Assembly: GCF_004135385.1 (NCBI RefSeq)
Contig: NZ_CP035493.1
Location: 1,612,001-1,676,000, forward strand
Source: Xylanimonas protaetiae
Lineage (GTDB): Bacteria > Actinomycetota > Actinomycetes > Actinomycetales > Cellulomonadaceae
Length of the DNA: 64,000 bases
Direction of reading: 5' to 3'
Translations under genes and position numbers: made by a program
Notes under the pieces: generated by a model
What the model was told of the DNA's origin: nothing
Seen by the model: only the letters and a program-made list of their open reading frames with translations
The model's database searches: none
Shown here: positions 32,233-42,962 of the stretch, in pieces
Position numbering within the stretch: position 1 is the first letter of the stretch
How the letters are laid out: the number at the start of each line of letters is the position of its first letter

Positions 32233-33693
32233 ATGCCCGACGTTCCCGACCTGCTGACGCTCGGCCGCCGCGTCCGCCACCTGCGCACGCGCCGCGGCCT
32301 GACCCTCGACGCGCTGGGCGCGGCCGTGGGTGCGGCGCCGTCGCTGCTCTCGCTCATCGAGAACGGCAAGCGTGAGCCCCGGCTCTCCCTGCTGCGCCAG
32401 CTCGCGGAGGCGCTGGGCGTCGACGTCGGCGAGCTGCTCGCCGCCGAGGCGCCCGACCGGCGGGCCGCCCTCGAGATCGCGCTGGAGCGCGCGCAGCGCG
32501 GCCCGCTCTTCGGGGAGCTCGGGCTGCCGCAGGTCAGGCCGTCGCAGAAGCTGCCCATGCCGGTGCTCGAGCAGCTCGTCGGCCTGCACGCCGAGCTGGC
32601 CCGGCGTGAGGAGGAGGCCATCGCGACCCCGGAGGAGGCGCGGCGGGCCAACACCGAGCTGCGGCTCGGCCGTCAGGAGCGCGGCAACTACTTCCCCGAG
32701 ATCGAGACCGTGGCCGAGCAGCTCGTCACGCGGGCCGGGTACCCGGGCGGCGGGGCCGTGTCCCACCGCACGGTCGCGCGCGTGGCCGAGGCGCTCGGCT
32801 TCAGGATCCTGCACGTCGCCGACCTGCCCCGCTCGGCCCGCACCGTCACCGACCTCAAGAACGGCCGCATCTACCTGCCGCAGGCCTCCACGCCCGGCGG
32901 GCACGGCCTGCGCTCGCTCGCCCTCCAGGCGGTCGCGCACCGCGTGCTCGGCCACGAGCGCCCGCGCTCGTACGGCGAGTTCCTGCGGCAGCGCGTCGAG
33001 ATCACGTACTTCGCGGCCGCCGCGCTCATGCCGCTCACCGCGTCGACGACGTTCCTCGCCGAGCGCAAGCGCGAGAAGGACCTCGCCGTCGAGGACTTCC
33101 GGGACGCGTTCGGCGTCACGCACGAGGCCGCCGCGATGCGCCTGACCAACCTCGCCACCGTGCACCTCGCCATGCCCCTGCACTTCCTACGCGTGGGCGC
33201 CGACGGCGCCCTGTTCCGCGGGTACGCCAACGACGGCATGCCGCTGCCGCAGGACGTCACCGGGGCGATCGAGGGCCAGCTCGTGTGCCGCAAGTGGGCC
33301 GCGCGCGCCGTGTTCGAGCGCCGCGACCGCGCCACCGAGCACTACCAGTACATCGACACGCCCGCGGGCACGTTCTGGGACTCCGTCGCCATGGGGACGC
33401 AGGGTCCCGACGACGCCGGCGGCTTCTCCGTCACGCTCGGCGTGCCGTACGCGGACGCCAAGTGGTTCCGCGGTCGTGACACCCGCGAGCGCCGCACCTC
33501 CACGTGCCCGGACCCGGCCTGCTGCCAGCGCCCGCCGGCCGACCTCGCCGACCGCTGGTCCGGCGCCGCGTGGCCGAGCGCCCGCATGCACCAGCAGATC
33601 CTCGCTGCGCTGCCCCGCGGGCGGTTCCCGGGCGTCGAGGACGCGGAGCTGTTCGCGTTCCTGGACCGGCACGCGCCCAAGGAGGGGGCGTGA
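32233..33693 (+). CDS. RamB/ScfR-type XRE regulator with ImmA/IrrE-like domain
   Basis: A 486-residue regulator. An XRE helix-turn-helix occupies residues about 9-65 (LGRRVRHLRTRRGLTLDALGAAVGAAPSLLSLIENGKREP). The middle is an ImmA/IrrE-like fold whose zinc motif is degraded (AHRVLGHERP rather than HEXXH). The C-terminus is the DUF2083-type domain with a cysteine cluster (CPDPACC). This architecture is that of RamB, which controls glyoxylate and carbon metabolism genes in corynebacteria and mycobacteria. ATG lies 6 nt after a -10 box, so the mRNA is probably almost leaderless. The PPTase gene overlaps its stop. Confidence 0.9.
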   Translation: MPDVPDLLTLGRRVRHLRTRRGLTLDALGAAVGAAPSLLSLIENGKREPRLSLLRQLAEALGVDVGELLAAEAPDRRAALEIALERAQRGPLFGELGLPQVRPSQKLPMPVLEQLVGLHAELARREEEAIATPEEARRANTELRLGRQERGNYFPEIETVAEQLVTRAGYPGGGAVSHRTVARVAEALGFRILHVADLPRSARTVTDLKNGRIYLPQASTPGGHGLRSLALQAVAHRVLGHERPRSYGEFLRQRVEITYFAAAALMPLTASTTFLAERKREKDLAVEDFRDAFGVTHEAAAMRLTNLATVHLAMPLHFLRVGADGALFRGYANDGMPLPQDVTGAIEGQLVCRKWAARAVFERRDRATEHYQYIDTPAGTFWDSVAMGTQGPDDAGGFSVTLGVPYADAKWFRGRDTRERRTSTCPDPACCQRPPADLADRWSGAAWPSARMHQQILAALPRGRFPGVEDAELFAFLDRHAPKEGA

Positions 33694-34367
33694 TCGTCCT
33701 GCGCGTGCTGGAGGTTCCCGACGATGACGGCGGCCCGCCCGCCGCGGCGCGGCGCTCGTCTCCGCTGGACGCGGCGCCGCGCTCGGCCTTGCTGGACGCG
33801 GCGCGCCGCTCGGCCCTGCTGGTCGCCGTGCTGTGCGAGGCCGGCGTCGACGTCGGCGAGCCCGTCGCGCTCGTGCGGCGGTGCCGCGTGTGCGGGTCCA
33901 CCGAGCACGGCAAGCCCGAGGTCGCGGCGGCGCTCGCGGTGGGCGTGCACGTCAGCCTCGCGCACACGCGGCGCCGGCTGGTGGCCGCCGCCGCCCGCGG
34001 GCCGGTGGGCGTGGACGTCGAGGACGTCGCCGCCGTGGCCGCGCACCCGGTCGCGGACGTCCTGCTGTCCGACGCCGAGCGCGCGGCCGGGCACCCGCTC
34101 GACGCCGAGTCCCTCACGCGCACGTGGGTGCGCAAGGAGGCCCTGCTCAAGGCCACCGGGCACGGGCTGCACGTGCCGCCGTCGGCGGTCACGCTGAGCC
34201 TCCCGGGCGACGGCGAGCCGCGGCTGCTCGGCTGGGACGGCCCGGGCGTCGCGCCGGTCCCGGGAGCGTGGACCGAGGAACGGAGCGATGGGCTCGGGCT
34301 GCCCGCGTCGTGGGTGTGCGCGGTCGCGCTCAGGCCCACGAGGCAGGCCATGCATCCGGCCGCATGA
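33690..34367 (+). CDS. 4'-phosphopantetheinyl transferase, Sfp superfamily
   Basis: A 225-residue PPTase that would load carrier proteins with the phosphopantetheine arm. The core motifs are VGVDVEDV (Mg-binding Asp and Glu) and WVRKEALLKATGHGL; VSLAHTRRRLVAA is the usual segment before them. The N-terminal 45 residues contain a short internal repeat (S-P/A-L-L-D-A-A). GTG overlaps the stop of the RamB-like gene (GTGA). About 2.4 kb downstream ends the Pls-like synthetase, whose carrier domain needs such an enzyme, so this is its most likely activator (inference). Confidence 0.87.
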   Translation: MIVLRVLEVPDDDGGPPAAARRSSPLDAAPRSALLDAARRSALLVAVLCEAGVDVGEPVALVRRCRVCGSTEHGKPEVAAALAVGVHVSLAHTRRRLVAAAARGPVGVDVEDVAAVAAHPVADVLLSDAERAAGHPLDAESLTRTWVRKEALLKATGHGLHVPPSAVTLSLPGDGEPRLLGWDGPGVAPVPGAWTEERSDGLGLPASWVCAVALRPTRQAMHPAA

Positions 34368-34400: not shown

Positions 34401-34440
34401 TCGACTATTTTCGACGTTCGTGGACTATCCTCGACGTCAT
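34401..34440 (+). promoter_or_regulatory. Tandem 20-bp repeat in a leaderless promoter
   Basis: GACTATTTTCGACGT (34403-34417) recurs as GACTATCCTCGACGT (34423-34437), exactly 20 bp (about two helical turns) later. TATCCT in the second copy lies 7 nt before the ATG at 34439 and fits a -10 box without leader. The winged-helix domain of the gene product is a natural binder. Confidence 0.6.
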
Positions 34441-35086
34441 GAGGATTCAGCGCCCGATGGCGGTCGTCACGCCGACGCTCGACGGCGACGTGCTGACGGT
34501 GCTGGCTCGCGCCTCCGCGGCCTTCACGCCGGGGCAGGTGTCCCGCCTGGTTCCCGGCGGCTCGGTCGACGGCATCCGCAAGGCCCTCAACCGGCTGGTC
34601 GACGAGGGGACCGTCATCGCGGACCGGGCGGGCAACGCCTACACGTACCGCCTCAACAACGAGCATCTCGCCGCCGAGCCGATCGTCGCGCTCGCTCGGC
34701 TGCGAGAGACGCTGATCGTCCGCTTGACCCAGACGGTGGCCGCATGGACGCCGGCGCCGACCTATGCGGCGATCTTCGGTTCGGCCGCTCGGGGAGAGAT
34801 GCGTTCCGACTCCGACATCGACCTGTTCCTGGTCCGCCCTGAGGCTTCCAGGGCTGACCAGTGGGACGAGCAGGTCGCAGACCTGGCCCTCGCTGCCCGC
34901 CGGTGGACCGGCAACGACGTCCGCCCGCTGGTGATGTCGCGATCCGAGGTCACAGCCGGTGTGGCCCCGACGGACGACGGCCTCGTCGAGCCGGTCCTGG
35001 AGGACATCGCCAGGGAGGGCATCGCGTTTGCCGGACCGTCCGCGTGGCTGAGCCGCCAGATCCGCACCGCCAGGAGGATCGCATGA
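34439..35086 (+). CDS. Winged-helix plus MNT-type nucleotidyltransferase
   Basis: A 215-residue protein with two parts. Residues about 10-75 form a winged-helix DNA-binding fold (FTPGQVSRLVPGGSVDGIRKALNRLVDEGTV). Residues about 105-200 form a minimal nucleotidyltransferase: FGSAARGEMRSDSDIDLFLV has the GS motif (114-115) and the metal Asp pair (126 and 128). MNT proteins in toxin-antitoxin pairs of MNT-HEPN type attach AMP to their partner. The promoter carries a tandem repeat that could be its operator. The partner gene overlaps its stop (ATGA). Confidence 0.8.
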   Translation: MRIQRPMAVVTPTLDGDVLTVLARASAAFTPGQVSRLVPGGSVDGIRKALNRLVDEGTVIADRAGNAYTYRLNNEHLAAEPIVALARLRETLIVRLTQTVAAWTPAPTYAAIFGSAARGEMRSDSDIDLFLVRPEASRADQWDEQVADLALAARRWTGNDVRPLVMSRSEVTAGVAPTDDGLVEPVLEDIAREGIAFAGPSAWLSRQIRTARRIA

Positions 35087-35343
35087 GCCCGCGCACGGTC
35101 TCCACCGACCAGCACGCCCGCAGGGGTCGCCTCGCCAAGGCCCGGCAGTTCGCTGAGGCTGCCGAGATCGTGCACGCCCTCGCTGGCGGTCAGGCCGACC
35201 TCCTCGATGCTTATGACCTGGACGTCCTGCTCGGCATGAAGACCCAGGCAGGGTACGGACACGAGCCGGTCACGCCTGAGCGGGCCGTGCGGTCGGGCAG
35301 GGCCATGGATGCGCTGCTGGTCGCAGCGGGGATCGTGGGATGA
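35083..35343 (+). CDS. Small partner protein of the nucleotidyltransferase
   Basis: An 86-residue, mostly helical protein that starts in the ATGA overlap with the nucleotidyltransferase gene. The opening LAKARQFAEAAEIVHALAGGQADLLDAYDLDVLLG resembles the first helices of HEPN-like proteins found beside MNT genes, but the RX4-6H catalytic motif of HEPN RNases is absent, so it is either an inactive or a different partner. AGGAGGATC precedes the ATG. It ends 32 nt before the stop of the convergent peptidase gene. Confidence 0.65.
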   Translation: MSPRTVSTDQHARRGRLAKARQFAEAAEIVHALAGGQADLLDAYDLDVLLGMKTQAGYGHEPVTPERAVRSGRAMDALLVAAGIVG

Positions 35344-35374: not shown

Positions 35375-36751
35375 TCAGGCCGGGAGCGCCGGCAGGGGGC
35401 GGGCGTCCAGCCACGGGGTCAGGGCGCCCGCGGCCGCGGCGCCGCAGCGCTCCGCGACCAGCGCGCGGAAGTCCGACGTCGTCGCGGTGCCGTGGCGGAA
35501 CCGCTCGGTCCAGGCGTGCAGCAGGCCGAAGAAGCGGTCGTCGCCCACGACCGTGCGCAGCGCGTGCAGGGTCAGGGCGCCGCGCTTGTAGGTGCGGTCG
35601 TCGAACATCAGGTCGGGCCCGGGGTCGGTAAGCAGCAGGTCCTGGGGGAGCCCAGCCAGCCGCGCGTGGTGCTCGGCCGCGTGCTCGGCCGCCGACGGCC
35701 CGCCCGACCGCTCCGACCACAGCCACTCGGCGTAGCAGGCGAAGCCCTCGTGCAGCCAGATGTCGCTCCAGCGCGCGGCCGTCACCGAGTTGCCGAACCA
35801 CTGGTGGGCGAGCTCGTGCGCCACGAGCCGGTCCTCGGGCTTCGACCCGTCCAGGTGGTTGGCGCCGAACACGGCCGTGCCGTGCGCCTCGAGCGGGATC
35901 TCGAGCTCGTCGGGCGTGACGACGACGGTGTACGCGGCGAACGGGTACGGGCCGAAGAGCTCCTCGAAGACGGCGAGGAGCGCGCCGTGCCGGTCGAGGT
36001 CGTGCGCGACGGCGGCGGCCTGCGGGGCGGGGCGCGCCACCTGCACGAGCGGGGTGGCGCGGGCGCCGGACGACGTCGCCGGCGCCCCGCTGCGAGGTGC
36101 CTCGTCGCGGGGTGTCTCGTCGCGGGGTACGACGTCGAGCGGGACGACGTCGTACCGCCCGATCTGCACCGTCGCCAGATAGACGTTGAGCGGCTCGGTC
36201 CGCTGGAACACCCACGTGCGCGTCCCCGCCCGGCGCGTGACCTTGGCGACCGGCGCGTTCGCCACCACGGTGTACGGGGCGTCGGTGGTCAGCGTGAGGT
36301 CGATCGTGGACTTCGGCCCCAGCCGGTCGTTGCACGGGAACCAGGTGGGGGCGCCGTCGGGCTGCCCGGCGACCAGCACGCCCTCGCCCAGCTCCTCCCA
36401 GCCGGTCTCGCCCCACGGGCCCCGGCCCGGGCGGGGGTTGCCCGCGTACGTGATCGCGACCGTGGCCGTGGCACCTGGGGCGAGCGGTCGCGGCAGGCGC
36501 ACCCGCATCGACCGCTTGTTGGCCGCGAACTTCGCCGGCCTCCCGCCGACCTCCACGCGCGCGACCCGCAGCCCGATGAGGTCGAGCCGCAGGTCGGTGC
36601 ACGCCTCGACGGCGCGCACGCCGAGGCGCGCCGTGCCCTCCAGCCGGTTGGGCTCGACGCGGTAGCGCAGGTCCAGCGCGTAGTGCTCGACGACGTAGTC
36701 CGCCGAGCCGTGGTTCGGAAGATAGGGGTCCGGGTCACGACGGTGCGGCAT
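35375..36751 (-). CDS. M1-family zinc metallopeptidase
   Basis: A 458-residue M1 aminopeptidase-like protein. The zinc site HELAHQWFGN plus the downstream Glu in LHEGFACYAEWLW is complete, and the catalytic Tyr is likely in DRTYKRGALTLHAL. The N-terminal beta domain (about 1-200) is present. The typical GAMEN motif is replaced by a DELEIPLEAHG segment, so exopeptidase anchoring may differ. A Pro/Arg/Asp repeat (VPRDETPRDEAPR) forms a linker. It starts 11 nt after the Pls-like gene, on the same strand. Zinc aminopeptidases degrade epsilon-poly-lysine in Streptomyces, so a polymer-processing role is plausible (inference). Confidence 0.88.
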   Translation of the reverse strand: MPHRRDPDPYLPNHGSADYVVEHYALDLRYRVEPNRLEGTARLGVRAVEACTDLRLDLIGLRVARVEVGGRPAKFAANKRSMRVRLPRPLAPGATATVAITYAGNPRPGRGPWGETGWEELGEGVLVAGQPDGAPTWFPCNDRLGPKSTIDLTLTTDAPYTVVANAPVAKVTRRAGTRTWVFQRTEPLNVYLATVQIGRYDVVPLDVVPRDETPRDEAPRSGAPATSSGARATPLVQVARPAPQAAAVAHDLDRHGALLAVFEELFGPYPFAAYTVVVTPDELEIPLEAHGTAVFGANHLDGSKPEDRLVAHELAHQWFGNSVTAARWSDIWLHEGFACYAEWLWSERSGGPSAAEHAAEHHARLAGLPQDLLLTDPGPDLMFDDRTYKRGALTLHALRTVVGDDRFFGLLHAWTERFRHGTATTSDFRALVAERCGAAAAGALTPWLDARPLPALPA

Positions 36752-36762
36752 GGCCGGTGACT

Positions 36763-39700
36763 CTACCGATCCCGGGCAGTGGGCCGGGCCGCCCAGGGCG
36801 CGACCGGGTTGCCCTGCCAGCGCGACCCCTGCGGCAGCACCTCGCCGCGCATGACGAGCGACGCCGGGCCCGCGACGGTGCCCGCGCCGAGCCGGGCGGC
36901 GGGCAGCACCACGGAGTGCGGCCCCACGGTGGCACCTGCCTCGACGCGCACGCCGTCGAGCGACATGACGCGGTCGTGGAACAGGTGCGTCTGGAGCACC
37001 GTCCCGCGGCCGACGGCGGCGCCGTCGTCGAGCGTGACGAGGTCGCCCTCCGGCAGCCAGTACGTCTCGAGCCAGACGCCGCGGCCGATGTGCGCGCCCA
37101 TGGTGCGCAGCCAGGCCGTGAGGACGGGCGTGCCGAGCACGTGGTTGGTGAACCACGGCGCGGCGACCACCTCGGTGAACGTGTCGGCCAGCTCGTTGCG
37201 CCACACGAACGAGCTCCACAGCGGGTGCTCGGACGCGTCGAACCGGCCCACGAGCAGCCGCTTCGCGCCCGTCGTCACGGCGGCCGCGACGAGGGCGGCG
37301 ACGACGAGGGCCCCGCCGGCGGCCAGCGCGCCGAGCCCCCAGCCGCCCAGGTGTGCGACCTCCAGCACCGCGACGACGACGCCCGCGCCGAGCGCCCCGG
37401 AGACGACCGTGGCCGTCAGCCGCAGCACCTCGACCCCACCGCGCGCCCAGCGCAGCCGGGCGGGCGGCTCGTAGGTGAGGCCCTCGTCGTCGGACCCGCC
37501 GACGGTGCGGGGGAGCAGCACGGGCGGGCTGCCGATCCACGACGAGCCCTTCTTGGCCTTGTGCGGGGCCGCGGACAGCACCGCGACGAGCCCGTTCTTG
37601 GGCACCGAGCGGCCCGGCGCCGTGATGCCCGAGTTGCCGAGGAACGCGCGCCGGCCCACCTTGGCCGGGGCGACGCGCAGCCAGCCGCCGCCCAGCTCGT
37701 AGGGGGCCACCATGGTGTCGTCGGCGAGGAACGCGCCGTCGGAGGCCTCCATCATCGTCGGGATGCCCACCACGGTGGACGCCTCGACGTGGCGGCCCAT
37801 GCGCGCGCCGAGCAGACGCAGCCACGCGGGTGTGGCGATGCTCGAGTACAGCGGGAACAGCACGGTGCGGGCGGCGTCCATGACGCGCTCGGTGCACCAC
37901 GCCTGCCAGCCCGTCCGGCTGCGCACGGGGTGGAACCCGGCGCGCATGCCGAGCGCGAGCAGCCGCACGAGCACCACGGTGAGCACCGCGTAGGCCGCGA
38001 ACGCGGCGAGGATCGCGACGGGCAGCCACGCCGCCGCCGAGCGCAGCGCGTCCGCCGGGGTCGCCGCGTCGCCGGCGCCGCCCAGCAACACCAGTACGCC
38101 GGCCGCGAGCGCGAGCACCGGCTGGAGTCCCAGCAGCACGCCGCCGGCCTGGTAGGCGAGCACCCAGCCTCCGCCGCGCGCGGGCCGCTCGTCGGGCCAC
38201 GGGTGCTTGACCTCGCTGCGGCGGCGGGTCGCGGGCGACCCCTCCCAGTACTCGTTCGTCCCGGTGCCGCCGACGACGGCGGAGCCCGCCGCGATGTCCG
38301 TGCCGCGCCCGACGTGCGCCCCGGGCAGCAGCACGCTGCGTGCCCCGACGGTGGCGTCCGCCCCGACGACGACGCGGCCCACGTGCAGCACGTCGCCCTC
38401 GAGCCAGTGCCCGGACAGGTCGACCTCGGGCTCGACCGCGGCACGGTCGCCGACGGTGAGCAGCCCGGTGACGGGCGGCAGCGTGTGCAGGTCGACGCCG
38501 CGCCCGATGCGGGCGCCGAGCGCGCGGGCGTAGAGGCCGACGAGCGGGGCCGCGGCCACCGTGATGCCGCCGAGCGCCTCGACGAGCTGCTCGGCGAGCC
38601 ACAGCCGCCGGTGCGCCGAGCCGCCGCGCGGGTGGTCGCCCGGCCCGACGCCGCGCAGCAGCAGCCGGGCGGCGCCCGCGGCGAGCGCGAGGCGGCCAGG
38701 CGCCGCGACGAGCAGCAGCCAGGCGACCACAAGCCACGGCCACGACACCGCGGGCAGCGACGCGAGCACGCGCTCGGCGCCGGGCCCGAGCCACGCGTCC
38801 CCCGGGAGCCGCAGCAGCCCGACGACGATGGCGGCCCACGTGGCCCACCGCAGCCCCGCCACGAGCCGGAGCAGGATCAAGGCCACCACCTGGAAGGCCT
38901 GGGTCCCTCGGGGGGTCGGCGTGCCGGGCGGGGGCGCGGCGGCGTCGTCGTCCCCGGCGCCGTACGTCACCTGGAGGAACGTCGCGAGGTCCGCGACGGT
39001 CGGGTTGGCGTACAGGTCGGCGACCGTGGCGAGCGGGTAGCGCTCGCGCACGGCCGAGACCACCTGCGCCGCGGTCAGCGAGCCGCCGCCGAGGTCGAAG
39101 AAGTCGTCGTCGGCCGACGTCGGCGGGACGCCGAGCACGCGGCCCCACACCTCGGCCACCCACTCCTGGACGGGGTCGGCGAGGGCGGCGACGTCGTCGT
39201 CCGACGGGGTGGCCACGCCGGGGAGCGGCCACGGCAGCGCGTCACGGTCCACCTTGCCGCTCGTGCGCGTGGGGATCTCCCCGACGACGCCGAGCAGCGG
39301 CACGAGCGCGGCGGGCAGCACCTCGCGCAGGTGGGCGGTGAGCGCGGCGGCGTCGAACGACGGCGCGTGCGACGGGACGACGTACCCGACGATGACCTTG
39401 TTGCCGGCTGCGGTGGTGCGCACGGCCGCGGCCGCGGCCTCGACCTGCGGCGACGCGAGCAGGGCCGCGTCGAGCTCGCCGAGCTCGATGCGCCGCCCGC
39501 CCACCTTGACCTGGTCGTCGGCGCGCCCCAGGAACAGCAGGCCCGCGGGGTCGTTCACGACGAGGTCGCCGGACCGGTACGCGCGTTCCCAGCCGAGCGA
39601 CGGCAGCGGCGCGTACTTCTCGGCGTCCTTGGCGGGGTCGAGGTAGCGCCCCAGCCCGACGCCGCCGATGACGAGCTCGCCCGCCGCACCCTCGGGCACC

Positions 39701-40692
39701 GGCTCGCCCGCCTCGTCGACGACGACGAGGTCCCACCCGTCGAGCGGCAGCCCGATGCGCACGGGCCCGACGCCGTCGAGGATCGCGGCGCACGCGACGA
39801 CGGTCGCCTCCGTCGGGCCGTACGTGTTCCACACCTCGCGCCCGTCCGCGGCGAGGCGCGTCGCGAGCTCGGGCGGCACGGACTCGCCGCCGAAGATCAG
39901 CAGGCGGACCCTCGCCAGGTCCGCCGCGGGCAGCAGGCCCGCCAGGGTCGGCACCGTGGAGATCGCGGTGATGCCCTGCGCGGCCACCCACGGGCCCAGG
40001 TCCAGGCCGGTGCGCACGAGCGCGCGGTCCGCGGGCACGAGGCAGGCGCCGTGCCGCCAGGCCAGCCACATCTCCTCGCAGCTCGCGTCGAACGCGACCG
40101 ACAGCCCGGCGAGCACGCGGTCGCCCGGTCCCAGCGGGTCTGCCTGGAGGAAGAGGCGCGCCTCGGCGTCGACGAACGCGGCCGCGCTGCGGTGCGTGAC
40201 GGCCACGCCCTTGGGCACGCCGGTGGACCCGGACGTGAAGATGATCCAGGCGACGTCGTCGAGCCCGGGCGCGCCGGCGACCCGGGCCGCCGGGGGAGCC
40301 GCCGTCGGGACGTCGATCGCTCCGTCGTCGCCGACGACGGCGACCACGCCCGCCTCGCCGAACACGAGCTCGGCGCGCTCCTCCGGGTCGTCACGGTCGA
40401 CGGGCACGTAGGCGGCGCCCGCGTGCAGCACGGCGAGGATCGCGAGGTACAGGTCCGCGCGGCCCGACGTCGCCCGCACGCCGACGCGGTCGCCGCGGCG
40501 CACGCCGGCGTCGGCGAGCGCCCTCGCACGGGCCGTCACCTCGGCGACCACCTCGGCGTACGACCAGGCGCGGACGCCGTCGTCGATGGCGGGGGCGTCG
40601 GGGTGGGCGGCCGCCGTCGCGGCCAGGAGCTCGACCAGGGTGCGCGGGGTCGCCGCGCGATCACCGGCGAGCAGGGGGGACAGCGTGGGCAC
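36763..40692 (-). CDS. Pls/PosA-type membrane non-ribosomal peptide synthetase
   Basis: A 1309-residue synthetase with the plan of epsilon-poly-L-lysine synthetase. An adenylation domain (about 20-490) has IIFTSGSTGVPKG, NTYGPTEATVV, YRSGDLV and TSGKVDRDALP. A carrier domain has LGGGSL with Ser538 for phosphopantetheine. The C-terminal 700 residues hold about six membrane helices around three left-handed beta-helix-like domains (hexapeptide patterns such as VGADATVGARSVLLPGAHVG). No condensation or thioesterase domain is present. By GrsA positions, the ten code residues are D202, A203, E206, S245, I266, G268, T290, V298, V299 and K480, a set that fits Lys/Orn-type substrates. GTG at 40692. 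Confidence 0.9.
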   Translation of the reverse strand: MPTLSPLLAGDRAATPRTLVELLAATAAAHPDAPAIDDGVRAWSYAEVVAEVTARARALADAGVRRGDRVGVRATSGRADLYLAILAVLHAGAAYVPVDRDDPEERAELVFGEAGVVAVVGDDGAIDVPTAAPPAARVAGAPGLDDVAWIIFTSGSTGVPKGVAVTHRSAAAFVDAEARLFLQADPLGPGDRVLAGLSVAFDASCEEMWLAWRHGACLVPADRALVRTGLDLGPWVAAQGITAISTVPTLAGLLPAADLARVRLLIFGGESVPPELATRLAADGREVWNTYGPTEATVVACAAILDGVGPVRIGLPLDGWDLVVVDEAGEPVPEGAAGELVIGGVGLGRYLDPAKDAEKYAPLPSLGWERAYRSGDLVVNDPAGLLFLGRADDQVKVGGRRIELGELDAALLASPQVEAAAAAVRTTAAGNKVIVGYVVPSHAPSFDAAALTAHLREVLPAALVPLLGVVGEIPTRTSGKVDRDALPWPLPGVATPSDDDVAALADPVQEWVAEVWGRVLGVPPTSADDDFFDLGGGSLTAAQVVSAVRERYPLATVADLYANPTVADLATFLQVTYGAGDDDAAAPPPGTPTPRGTQAFQVVALILLRLVAGLRWATWAAIVVGLLRLPGDAWLGPGAERVLASLPAVSWPWLVVAWLLLVAAPGRLALAAGAARLLLRGVGPGDHPRGGSAHRRLWLAEQLVEALGGITVAAAPLVGLYARALGARIGRGVDLHTLPPVTGLLTVGDRAAVEPEVDLSGHWLEGDVLHVGRVVVGADATVGARSVLLPGAHVGRGTDIAAGSAVVGGTGTNEYWEGSPATRRRSEVKHPWPDERPARGGGWVLAYQAGGVLLGLQPVLALAAGVLVLLGGAGDAATPADALRSAAAWLPVAILAAFAAYAVLTVVLVRLLALGMRAGFHPVRSRTGWQAWCTERVMDAARTVLFPLYSSIATPAWLRLLGARMGRHVEASTVVGIPTMMEASDGAFLADDTMVAPYELGGGWLRVAPAKVGRRAFLGNSGITAPGRSVPKNGLVAVLSAAPHKAKKGSSWIGSPPVLLPRTVGGSDDEGLTYEPPARLRWARGGVEVLRLTATVVSGALGAGVVVAVLEVAHLGGWGLGALAAGGALVVAALVAAAVTTGAKRLLVGRFDASEHPLWSSFVWRNELADTFTEVVAAPWFTNHVLGTPVLTAWLRTMGAHIGRGVWLETYWLPEGDLVTLDDGAAVGRGTVLQTHLFHDRVMSLDGVRVEAGATVGPHSVVLPAARLGAGTVAGPASLVMRGEVLPQGSRWQGNPVAPWAARPTARDR

Positions 40693-40781
40693 GCGCGGTC
40701 GTCCTTCTCGAGCACGGAGGCGAGCGAACCGTCGCCGGGGGCCGACCAGTCTACGGTCGGCAGCCCGCGGGGCGTCGGGAC

Positions 40782-40808
40782 GTCTCACGTGAGACACCAC
40801 GTCTCACT
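40782..40808 (-). promoter_or_regulatory. Three GTCTCA half-sites upstream of the Pls-like gene
   Basis: GTCTCACGTGAGAC (40782-40795) is a perfect 14-bp palindrome. Its right half pairs again with GTCTCACT (40801-40808) across 5 bp to give a second inverted repeat (40790-40806). The site lies about 100 bp before the GTG of the synthetase in a 187-bp gap and suits a TetR-like or similar dimeric regulator. Confidence 0.6.
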
Positions 40809-41783: not shown

Positions 41784-42962
41784 TCAGAGGGCCGGCACCG
41801 GCGTGGCGGTGGCGAGCTCGCCACCGCGGACGCGGGCCGCGACGAGGTAGGCGACGAGCCCGGCGAGCGTGACGGCGGCACCGGCCCACAGCGGCGACGT
41901 GTACCCGAGCCCGGCGGCGAGCGTGAGGCCGCCGACCCAGGCGCCGAAGGCGTTGCCGATGTTGAACGCGGCGATGTTGGCTCCGGAGGCGAGGGTCGCC
42001 GCGTCGGAGGCGTGGTTCATGATCCGCATCTGGAGCCCGGGCACGGTGGCGAACCCGAAGCCGCCCATGAGCACGAGCGCCACCAGGGTGGCCACGTGCG
42101 AGGATGCCGTCAGGGCGAACCCGGCGAGGATGACGGTGAGGGCCGACATGAGCACGACGAGCGTGGCGACGAGGTTGCGGTCGGCGAAGCGTCCGCCGAG
42201 GAGGTTGCCGGCGAACAGGCCGACGCCGAACAGCACGAGCAGCCAGGGCACGGCCGAGGCGTCGAAGCCGCCCACCTCGGTGAGGGTGAAGGCGATGTAG
42301 GTGAAGGCGCCGAACATGCCGCCGTAGCCGAGCACGGTCACCAGCATGGAGAGCCACACCTGCCCGCTGCGGAAGATGCGGAACTCGGCCAGGACGCCGT
42401 GCCCGCCGCGCGCCACGGGGGTCGGCCGGACGAGGGCGAGGATGCCGACGAACGCGACGACGCCGATGGCGGTGATGGCCCAGAACGTCGAGCGCCAGCC
42501 GGCGGCCTGGCCGAGGAAGGTGCCGAGCGGGACGCCCGCGACGTTGGCGATCGTCAGGCCGGCGAACATCATGGAGATGGCCGCGGCCCGGCGGTTCTCG
42601 GGGACCAGGTCGGTGGCGACGACCGCGCCGATGCCGAAGAACGCGCCGTGGCACAGCGCGGCGACGACGCGGCCCGCGAGCATGAGCCCGTAACCGGGCG
42701 CGACGGCCGAGATCAGGTTCCCGGCGATGAACAGGAGCAGGAGCCCGAGCAGGGCCTTCTTCCGGTCGACCCGTCCCAGCAGCGCCGTGAGCGCGACGCC
42801 CCCGACGGCGACCGAGAGGGCGTAGCCGGAGATGAGGTAGCCGGCGACGGTCTCGGTCACGCCGAAGTCCGACGCCACCTCGGGCAGCAGCCCCATGATG
42901 ACGAACTCCGTCAGACCGATCCCGAACCCGCCGAGTGCCAGCGCGTAGAGAGCAGCGGGCAT
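41784..42962 (-). CDS. MFS transporter, DHA1 family (AraJ/Cmx-like)
   Basis: A 392-residue MFS permease with 12 predicted helices. It starts with the family pattern ALGGFGIGLTEFVIMGLLPEVA, has the loop 2-3 signature ALLGRVDRKKALLG and the antiporter motif C region GVPLGTFLGQAAGWR in helix 5. The DHA1 AraJ-like group exports sugars, arabinose-like compounds or drugs such as chloramphenicol by proton antiport. GGAGGATC precedes the ATG. It is divergent from a MarR gene with operator-like repeats between them, an arrangement typical of a drug efflux gene and its repressor. Confidence 0.9.
   Translation of the reverse strand: MPAALYALALGGFGIGLTEFVIMGLLPEVASDFGVTETVAGYLISGYALSVAVGGVALTALLGRVDRKKALLGLLLLFIAGNLISAVAPGYGLMLAGRVVAALCHGAFFGIGAVVATDLVPENRRAAAISMMFAGLTIANVAGVPLGTFLGQAAGWRSTFWAITAIGVVAFVGILALVRPTPVARGGHGVLAEFRIFRSGQVWLSMLVTVLGYGGMFGAFTYIAFTLTEVGGFDASAVPWLLVLFGVGLFAGNLLGGRFADRNLVATLVVLMSALTVILAGFALTASSHVATLVALVLMGGFGFATVPGLQMRIMNHASDAATLASGANIAAFNIGNAFGAWVGGLTLAAGLGYTSPLWAGAAVTLAGLVAYLVAARVRGGELATATPVPAL

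Follow-up and report, generated by a model that had tools for sequence, protein, structure and literature searches.

The M1 metallopeptidase encoded directly downstream of a Pls-type synthetase in Xylanimonas protaetiae probably acts in the cytosol as a PldII-like enzyme, hydrolysing ε-poly-lysine within the producing cell for self-protection, which is the most likely of the roles considered here. Poly-lysine is a natural antimicrobial and a commercial food preservative. The gene pair lies in a 64,000-nucleotide stretch of contig NZ_CP035493.1 (positions 1,612,001 to 1,676,000), referred to below as the window. Linkage of pls to a peptidase gene is already known, both from pls-pldII of Streptomyces albulus and from a pls-peptidase operon reported in Corynebacterium variabile in 2021 (PMC8117764), and the window peptidase is apparently a cytosolic variant of this theme. 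The proposed role is supported by the operon arrangement, membership of the pls-linked group of M1 enzymes, intact zinc, catalytic and amine-anchor residues, the lack of a signal peptide and an acidic approach to the active site.

The peptidase and its partner synthetase

The peptidase gene, which begins with ATG and had been correctly delimited in an earlier note on this DNA (Table 1), encodes a member of peptidase family M1. The protein scores 93.6 bits against PF01433 and 43.1 bits against PF17900 (cut-offs 27.7 and 25.8, respectively), and residues 312–335 (HELAHQWFGN...E, spaced HExxH-18-E) constitute the zinc site of the family. An AlphaFold2 model (pLDDT 93.2, pTM 0.91) adopts the M1 fold, all 50 listed PDB matches being M1 enzymes. 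The top matches are entries for the two-domain M1 of D. radiodurans (6a8z, 6iff, 6ifg and 6kp0; Z 49.3–49.7, rmsd 2.4, 425–427 residues aligned, 33% identity), which has the same architecture but carries Glu at the position of Q130 and Ala at that of P286. These are followed by F3, LTA4H and larger aminopeptidases (Z ~40–43), and although the LTA4H/aminopeptidase N family shares the N-terminal and catalytic folds and the HExxH-18-E spacing, the window enzyme lacks both the C-terminal helical (capping) domain and a literal GGMEN/GAMEN. Gln is found at the amine site (Q130), as in LTA4H, and by homology to LTA4H and PepN this residue is presumably the equivalent of their amine-binding Gln/Glu; Y388, invariant in 52 of 52 aligned rows, is likewise presumed to be the catalytic Tyr. 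Two PF01433 matches were detected in the genome (3.86 Mb, one contig), namely the window M1 and a PepN-like frame of 878 residues in which GAMEN occurs literally.

The upstream gene, from whose TAG the peptidase ATG is separated by 11 nt, has a choice of two possible GTG starts (40800 and 40692) and matches TIGR02353, the Pls/PosA profile, with 656.4 bits (cut-off 423.1); PF00501 and PF00550 also score over their cut-offs. Its A domain aligns with the ε-poly-L-lysine synthase structure 7wew with 623.8 bits over residues 50–528, and the ten code positions (D-A-E-S-I-G-T-V-V-K), read from this alignment by eye with GrsA numbering, are identical in the two proteins. Lysine-activating members of the family have Ala at pocket position 2 and conserve Asp at position 1 and Glu at position 3 (PMC10522769), and the window pocket, with Ala, Asp and Glu at the respective positions, fits this pattern, making lysine the predicted substrate. 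The peptidase could instead act on another cationic homopolymer (of ornithine, diaminobutyrate or β-lysine) made by a synthetase that merely resembles Pls, given that the family makes several polymers and that the size of the substrate depends on pocket position 2 (PMC10522769). This is improbable, however, as position 2 is Ala and the pocket equals that of 7wew at each code position, and as three other actinomycete synthetases have been reported in a different gene context (PMC8117764). With this 7wew-like pocket and the shared operon arrangement, the earlier proposal that a poly-lysine-type synthetase is coupled to a zinc peptidase, encoded 11 nt downstream of the Pls-like gene, is upheld.

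Table 1. Features of the pls-M1 region in the window
Feature	Position	Strand	Remarks
4'-phosphopantetheinyl transferase	33504..34367	+	PF01648, 44.4 bits
M1 peptidase	35375..36751	-	458 aa; two-domain (N-terminal saddle and thermolysin-like catalytic domain); without export signal
Y388	35588..35590	-	presumed catalytic Tyr equivalent
E335	35747..35749	-	third zinc ligand
HELAH zinc site	35804..35818	-	H312, E313, H316
GAMEN-equivalent segment	35879..35914	-	PDELEIPLEAHG; residues 280–291, with P286 and E288
Q130	36362..36364	-	presumed equivalent of the amine-binding Gln/Glu of LTA4H/PepN
Spacer, synthetase TAG to M1 ATG	36752..36762	-	11 nt
Pls-type synthetase	36763..40800	-	A domain, T domain and membrane/tandem acyltransferase-like C-terminal part; complete

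The 4'-phosphopantetheinyl transferase encoded beyond the peptidase gene is an enzyme of the type that would be able to load the T domain of the synthetase, and homologues lie close to the pair in 13 of the 80 loci that ranked highest among 590 relatives, some of these loci being truncated by contig ends. In a Cellulosimicrobium locus (L033) the match to this enzyme starts ~180 nt beyond the M1 frame. Between the transferase and M1 genes of the window, within 34439–35343 (+), lies a gene for a nucleotidyltransferase (NTP_transf_2, 28.7 bits vs a cut-off of 21) overlapped by a small ORF without a Pfam match. On the other side, an aldo-keto reductase gene separates the synthetase from an upstream MFS efflux gene (41784–42962, -), the product of which resembles Cmx/CmrA chloramphenicol exporters (337 bits, under the cut-off of 400).

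Linkage of pls and M1 genes across actinobacteria

Relatives were collected with a profile built from eight linked M1s. Of 590 relatives the best 80, all from named actinobacteria, were inspected for their neighbours, and in 80 of 80 a synthetase gene is located upstream on the same strand; these loci were ranked by likeness to members without an export signal and so cannot gauge the share of such members, for which the class draw can be used. In that draw, spread evenly over the class and comprising 148 genomes, a linked-type M1 was detected in 24 and a synthetase of at least 54% identity in the same 24, where linked-type M1s were those scoring at least 570 bits and the rest scored no more than 407, a threshold set after the gap had been seen. 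The two genes are adjacent in 23 of the 24, a count that takes in one genome (G266) with 377 nt between its two matches; in the remaining genome (G276) they lie on separate contigs, away from the edges of both, and were scored as not adjacent. In a phylum draw of 149 genomes, eight exceeded the family cut-off, and all eight have the M1 next to the synthetase. The named loci and the genome-draw set may share species, and the intergenic gap values of three loci (L043, L080 and L098) are frame-reading artefacts. The earlier note had asked whether linkage to pls is conserved across actinobacteria, and these counts answer that it is.

The window M1 is 56% identical to a Cellulosimicrobium homologue and the gene pair is conserved across the class, which is far beyond chance. 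Chance linkage was rejected on the counts (80/80 among the best 80 of 590; 24/24 for co-occurrence and 23/24 for adjacency). M1 enzymes are common, and an ordinary housekeeping aminopeptidase that came to lie beside pls by accident might be envisaged, although aminopeptidase N profiles match the window protein far under their cut-off (TIGR02412, 100.4 vs 591.2 bits). The near-complete co-occurrence and adjacency, together with a Pro that is confined to linked enzymes (see below), render such a placement highly improbable.

Six more class-draw genomes contain divergent synthetases (27–39% identity). Three of these (G167, G193 and G222) are without a linked-type M1, and in the other three (G162, G224 and G278) an M1 of another subgroup is encoded downstream. 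In the latter loci (L114, L113 and L115, respectively) a short gene, with a BPL_N domain in L113, the locus covered by the Pfam check, is found between the synthetase gene (34–36% identity) and that of the M1, which is of the ordinary LETQ type and nested among unlinked M1s in the tree. These loci apparently represent an independent synthetase-peptidase pairing. The pair has loosened in the lineage of Gordonia soli (L065, 899 nt) and G276 (L116 and L117), where both genes are kept, and a pls-M1 pair on a contig labelled as a Bifidobacterium breve MAG (L037) groups with Mycobacterium in the tree, the contig probably being mis-binned.

A match was found in 160 Streptomyces genomes, adjacency having been checked in 26 fetched loci and in five genomes of the class draw. 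The A domains of the 26 are 70–94% identical to 7wew; no 100% match to 7wew was present among the Streptomyces matches, the best being 94%. An M1 gene is present in 23 of the 26 loci, so that a neighbouring peptidase is evidently dispensable in some cases. All three exceptions (L177, L178 and L182, with no M1 within the 5 kb fetched) belong to the 23 loci whose A domain is at least 75% identical to 7wew, the other 20 of which encode an M1 with a twin-arginine (Tat-type) N-terminus. The three loci at 70–71% identity comprise one Tat-type and two signal-less M1s.

Residues that mark the linked enzymes and export signals that divide them

According to the earlier note, the exopeptidase anchor GAMEN has been replaced in the window enzyme, and this was taken as a hint that the cut site may be adapted to isopeptide chains. 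The first part is accurate to the letter, since no literal GAMEN occurs in the window M1, which reads TPDELEIPLEAHG with IPLEA at the motif; the anchor Glu itself, however, is kept as E288. In an alignment of 165 M1s (106 signal-less linked, 21 Tat linked, three linked to divergent synthetases and 35 unlinked) every row has this Glu, the zinc ligands and E313, the rows having been chosen by the zinc motif, and the catalytic Tyr is present in 164. All 35 unlinked two-domain M1s read [LM]-E-[TNSV]-Q at the motif, and LETA stands there in the D. radiodurans crystal sequence, so that absence of GAMEN is a wider trait of two-domain M1s. Its absence therefore leaves membership of family M1 intact, and as a marker of isopeptide cleavage it was rejected.

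The linked group is instead marked by other features of the aligned sequences. A Pro two residues before the GAMEN Glu (P286) occurs in 127 of 127 linked rows vs 0 of 38 others. Gln at position 130 is likewise found in 127/127 linked rows, the 35 unlinked rows having Glu in 21 and Gln in 14, and Cys at position 140 in 127/127 vs 3/35. Net acid over the nine residues before E288 averages 3.66 (80 rows) and 3.67 (24 rows) in signal-less members, 2.71 in Tat members (21 rows) and 0.94 in unlinked enzymes (35 rows). In known M1 structures the equivalents of positions 130, 288 and 335 hold the substrate amine, and their conservation, E288 included, means that the amine anchor is kept in the window enzyme.

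A tree of 105 M1s, in which the 80 named loci are represented by 20, was built by a quick method with SH-aLRT as sole support measure and rooted at the midpoint. Linked M1s of the main kind fall on one side of a branch with SH-aLRT 100 and form two halves, one of 21 members that begin with a twin-arginine signal (SH-aLRT 99) and one of 46 members without it, including the window enzyme (98). All 24 class-draw M1 rows are of the signal-less kind. The Tat half corresponds to PldII, as pldII of S. albulus adjoins pls with a 4-nt overlap (PMC4361855), the same overlap was found in six of six Tat-half loci checked, and Thr194 and Glu281 of published PldII appear as T194 and E281 in five of eight Tat-half rows numbered from the overlapping start. 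The published model of PldII has zinc bound at D44/T45/D173/K174 and takes T194/E281 as the active site (PMC9223678). In L159–L163 (467–470 residues), however, the M1 zinc motif HExxH starts at residue 321 and the GAMEN Glu is residue 297, so the site as published is probably wrong.

The window M1 resembles PldII in its location directly downstream of pls, in belonging to the same tree group and in P286, Q130, C140, E288, the zinc site and Y388. It differs from the PldII half, to which it is 38–41% identical (six loci), in having an 11-nt spacer rather than the overlap, LEAHG rather than VENQT after P286, and no signal. There is no room for one, as 11 nt separate the synthetase stop from the ATG and the conserved domain is reached within a few residues (MPHRRDPDPYLP). 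Neither the signal screens nor a twin-arginine screen gave a convincing export signal among the 106 signal-less rows. The first signal screen was positive in 2/89 linked vs 32/38 other rows, and a second, which under-calls Tat, was positive in 4/80 named-locus, 0/24 class-draw, 7/23 Streptomyces and 36/38 other rows; the four linked positives fall in the mature domain, as seen from the printed segments. The twin-arginine screen was positive in 21/21 Tat rows, a consistency check rather than independent evidence because the Tat group was named after its segments had been read, and in 4/106 signal-less, 20/35 unlinked and 0/3 divergent rows. Among the four signal-less positives the twin arginine of the window lies upstream of the ATG, those of L067 and L099 look alike, and that of L009 is weak. 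Because PldII is an exported, outer-face enzyme and the window M1 belongs to the signal-less half, the latter is PldII-like rather than PldII, and the published location should not be assumed for it. Literature searches listed no assay of a signal-less member and, judged by titles and abstract beginnings, no report of a localization split among pls-linked M1s. The C. variabile peptidase gene is likewise in an operon with pls outside Streptomyces, and the Results of PMC8117764 describe no assay of its product.

Proposed role inside the producer

PldII has been shown to degrade ε-poly-lysine (PMC8117764, PMC9223678), repression of pldII lowered the MIC of ε-poly-lysine for the producer (PMC9223678), and the S. 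albulus enzymes are regarded in the literature as a means of self-protection (PMC8117764, PMC9223678, PMC8506220, PMC9205021), in agreement with one of two functions that the earlier note had suggested. The activity of PldII has been reported as endo-type and on the outer face of the membrane (PMC8506220, PMC9205021); given this location, its role may not carry over to the window enzyme. The latter would be made together with the synthetase and would hydrolyse ε-poly-lysine, the lack of a signal peptide pointing to action in the cytosol, where it could clear polymer that is retained by the predicted producer or re-enters it, affording self-protection and the recovery of lysine.

The second suggested function, the setting of chain length, is contested in print. 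A peptidase that trims the nascent or finished polymer could fix its size, and CRISPRi repression of pldII in S. albulus yielded chains with a degree of polymerization above 40 (PMC9223678). Inactivation of Pld and PldII, in contrast, is reported in a review to have left production and the degree of polymerization unchanged (PMC8506220), with a similar account in a second review (PMC9205021), and length appears to be set by Pls, in which linker mutations shorten the chain (PMC8506220). In view of these conflicting data chain-length control is possible but unlikely to be what the window peptidase does.

Most actinobacteria that carry the pair might instead use it in an intracellular make-and-break cycle, storing or buffering lysine as a polycation that is made at the membrane and broken in the cytosol, with no antimicrobial export; exported use with a Tat-type PldII would then be the special case of one Streptomyces lineage. 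Such a cycle would accord with the 106 signal-less rows, which come from many families and show no convincing sign of export, and with C. variabile, in cultures of which ε-poly-lysine was not detected although its pls works in Streptomyces coelicolor (PMC8117764). The 26–35-mers made by C. variabile pls in S. coelicolor were, however, recovered from culture extracts, and the lack of product in C. variabile is explained by missing expression, no Pls protein having been detected in its sample (PMC8117764). We consider the cycle doubtful.

Hydrolysis of ε-poly-lysine for self-protection within the cytosol, which remains the preferred role of the window enzyme, would be compatible with its aminopeptidase fold. 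The bonds of ε-poly-lysine join the α-carboxyl of one residue to the side-chain amine of the next, and every residue keeps a free α-amine. With a free α-amine beside each scissile carbonyl, every bond would look N-terminal to an anchor composed of Q130, E288 and E335, and an aminopeptidase site could attack the chain at any of its bonds with no need to lose its anchor. Internal cutting would require only an S1 pocket that is open for the rest of the polymer, as which the side chain continues, and the absence of a C-terminal capping domain and the change of GAM to IPL may provide such an opening. The acidic approach to the active site suits a polycationic substrate, and Pro286 would remove a backbone amide from strand pairing with ordinary peptides. 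This mechanism, which we infer from the chemistry of the polymer and the kept anchor, would reconcile an aminopeptidase fold with the endo-type activity reported for PldII.

The coupled poly-lysine-degrading enzyme has so far been described from one exported Streptomyces type. The signal-less enzymes raise a testable question, namely whether self-protection of the producer takes place inside or outside the cell, and the free α-amine argument would offer a simple chemical reason for internal cutting by an aminopeptidase fold.
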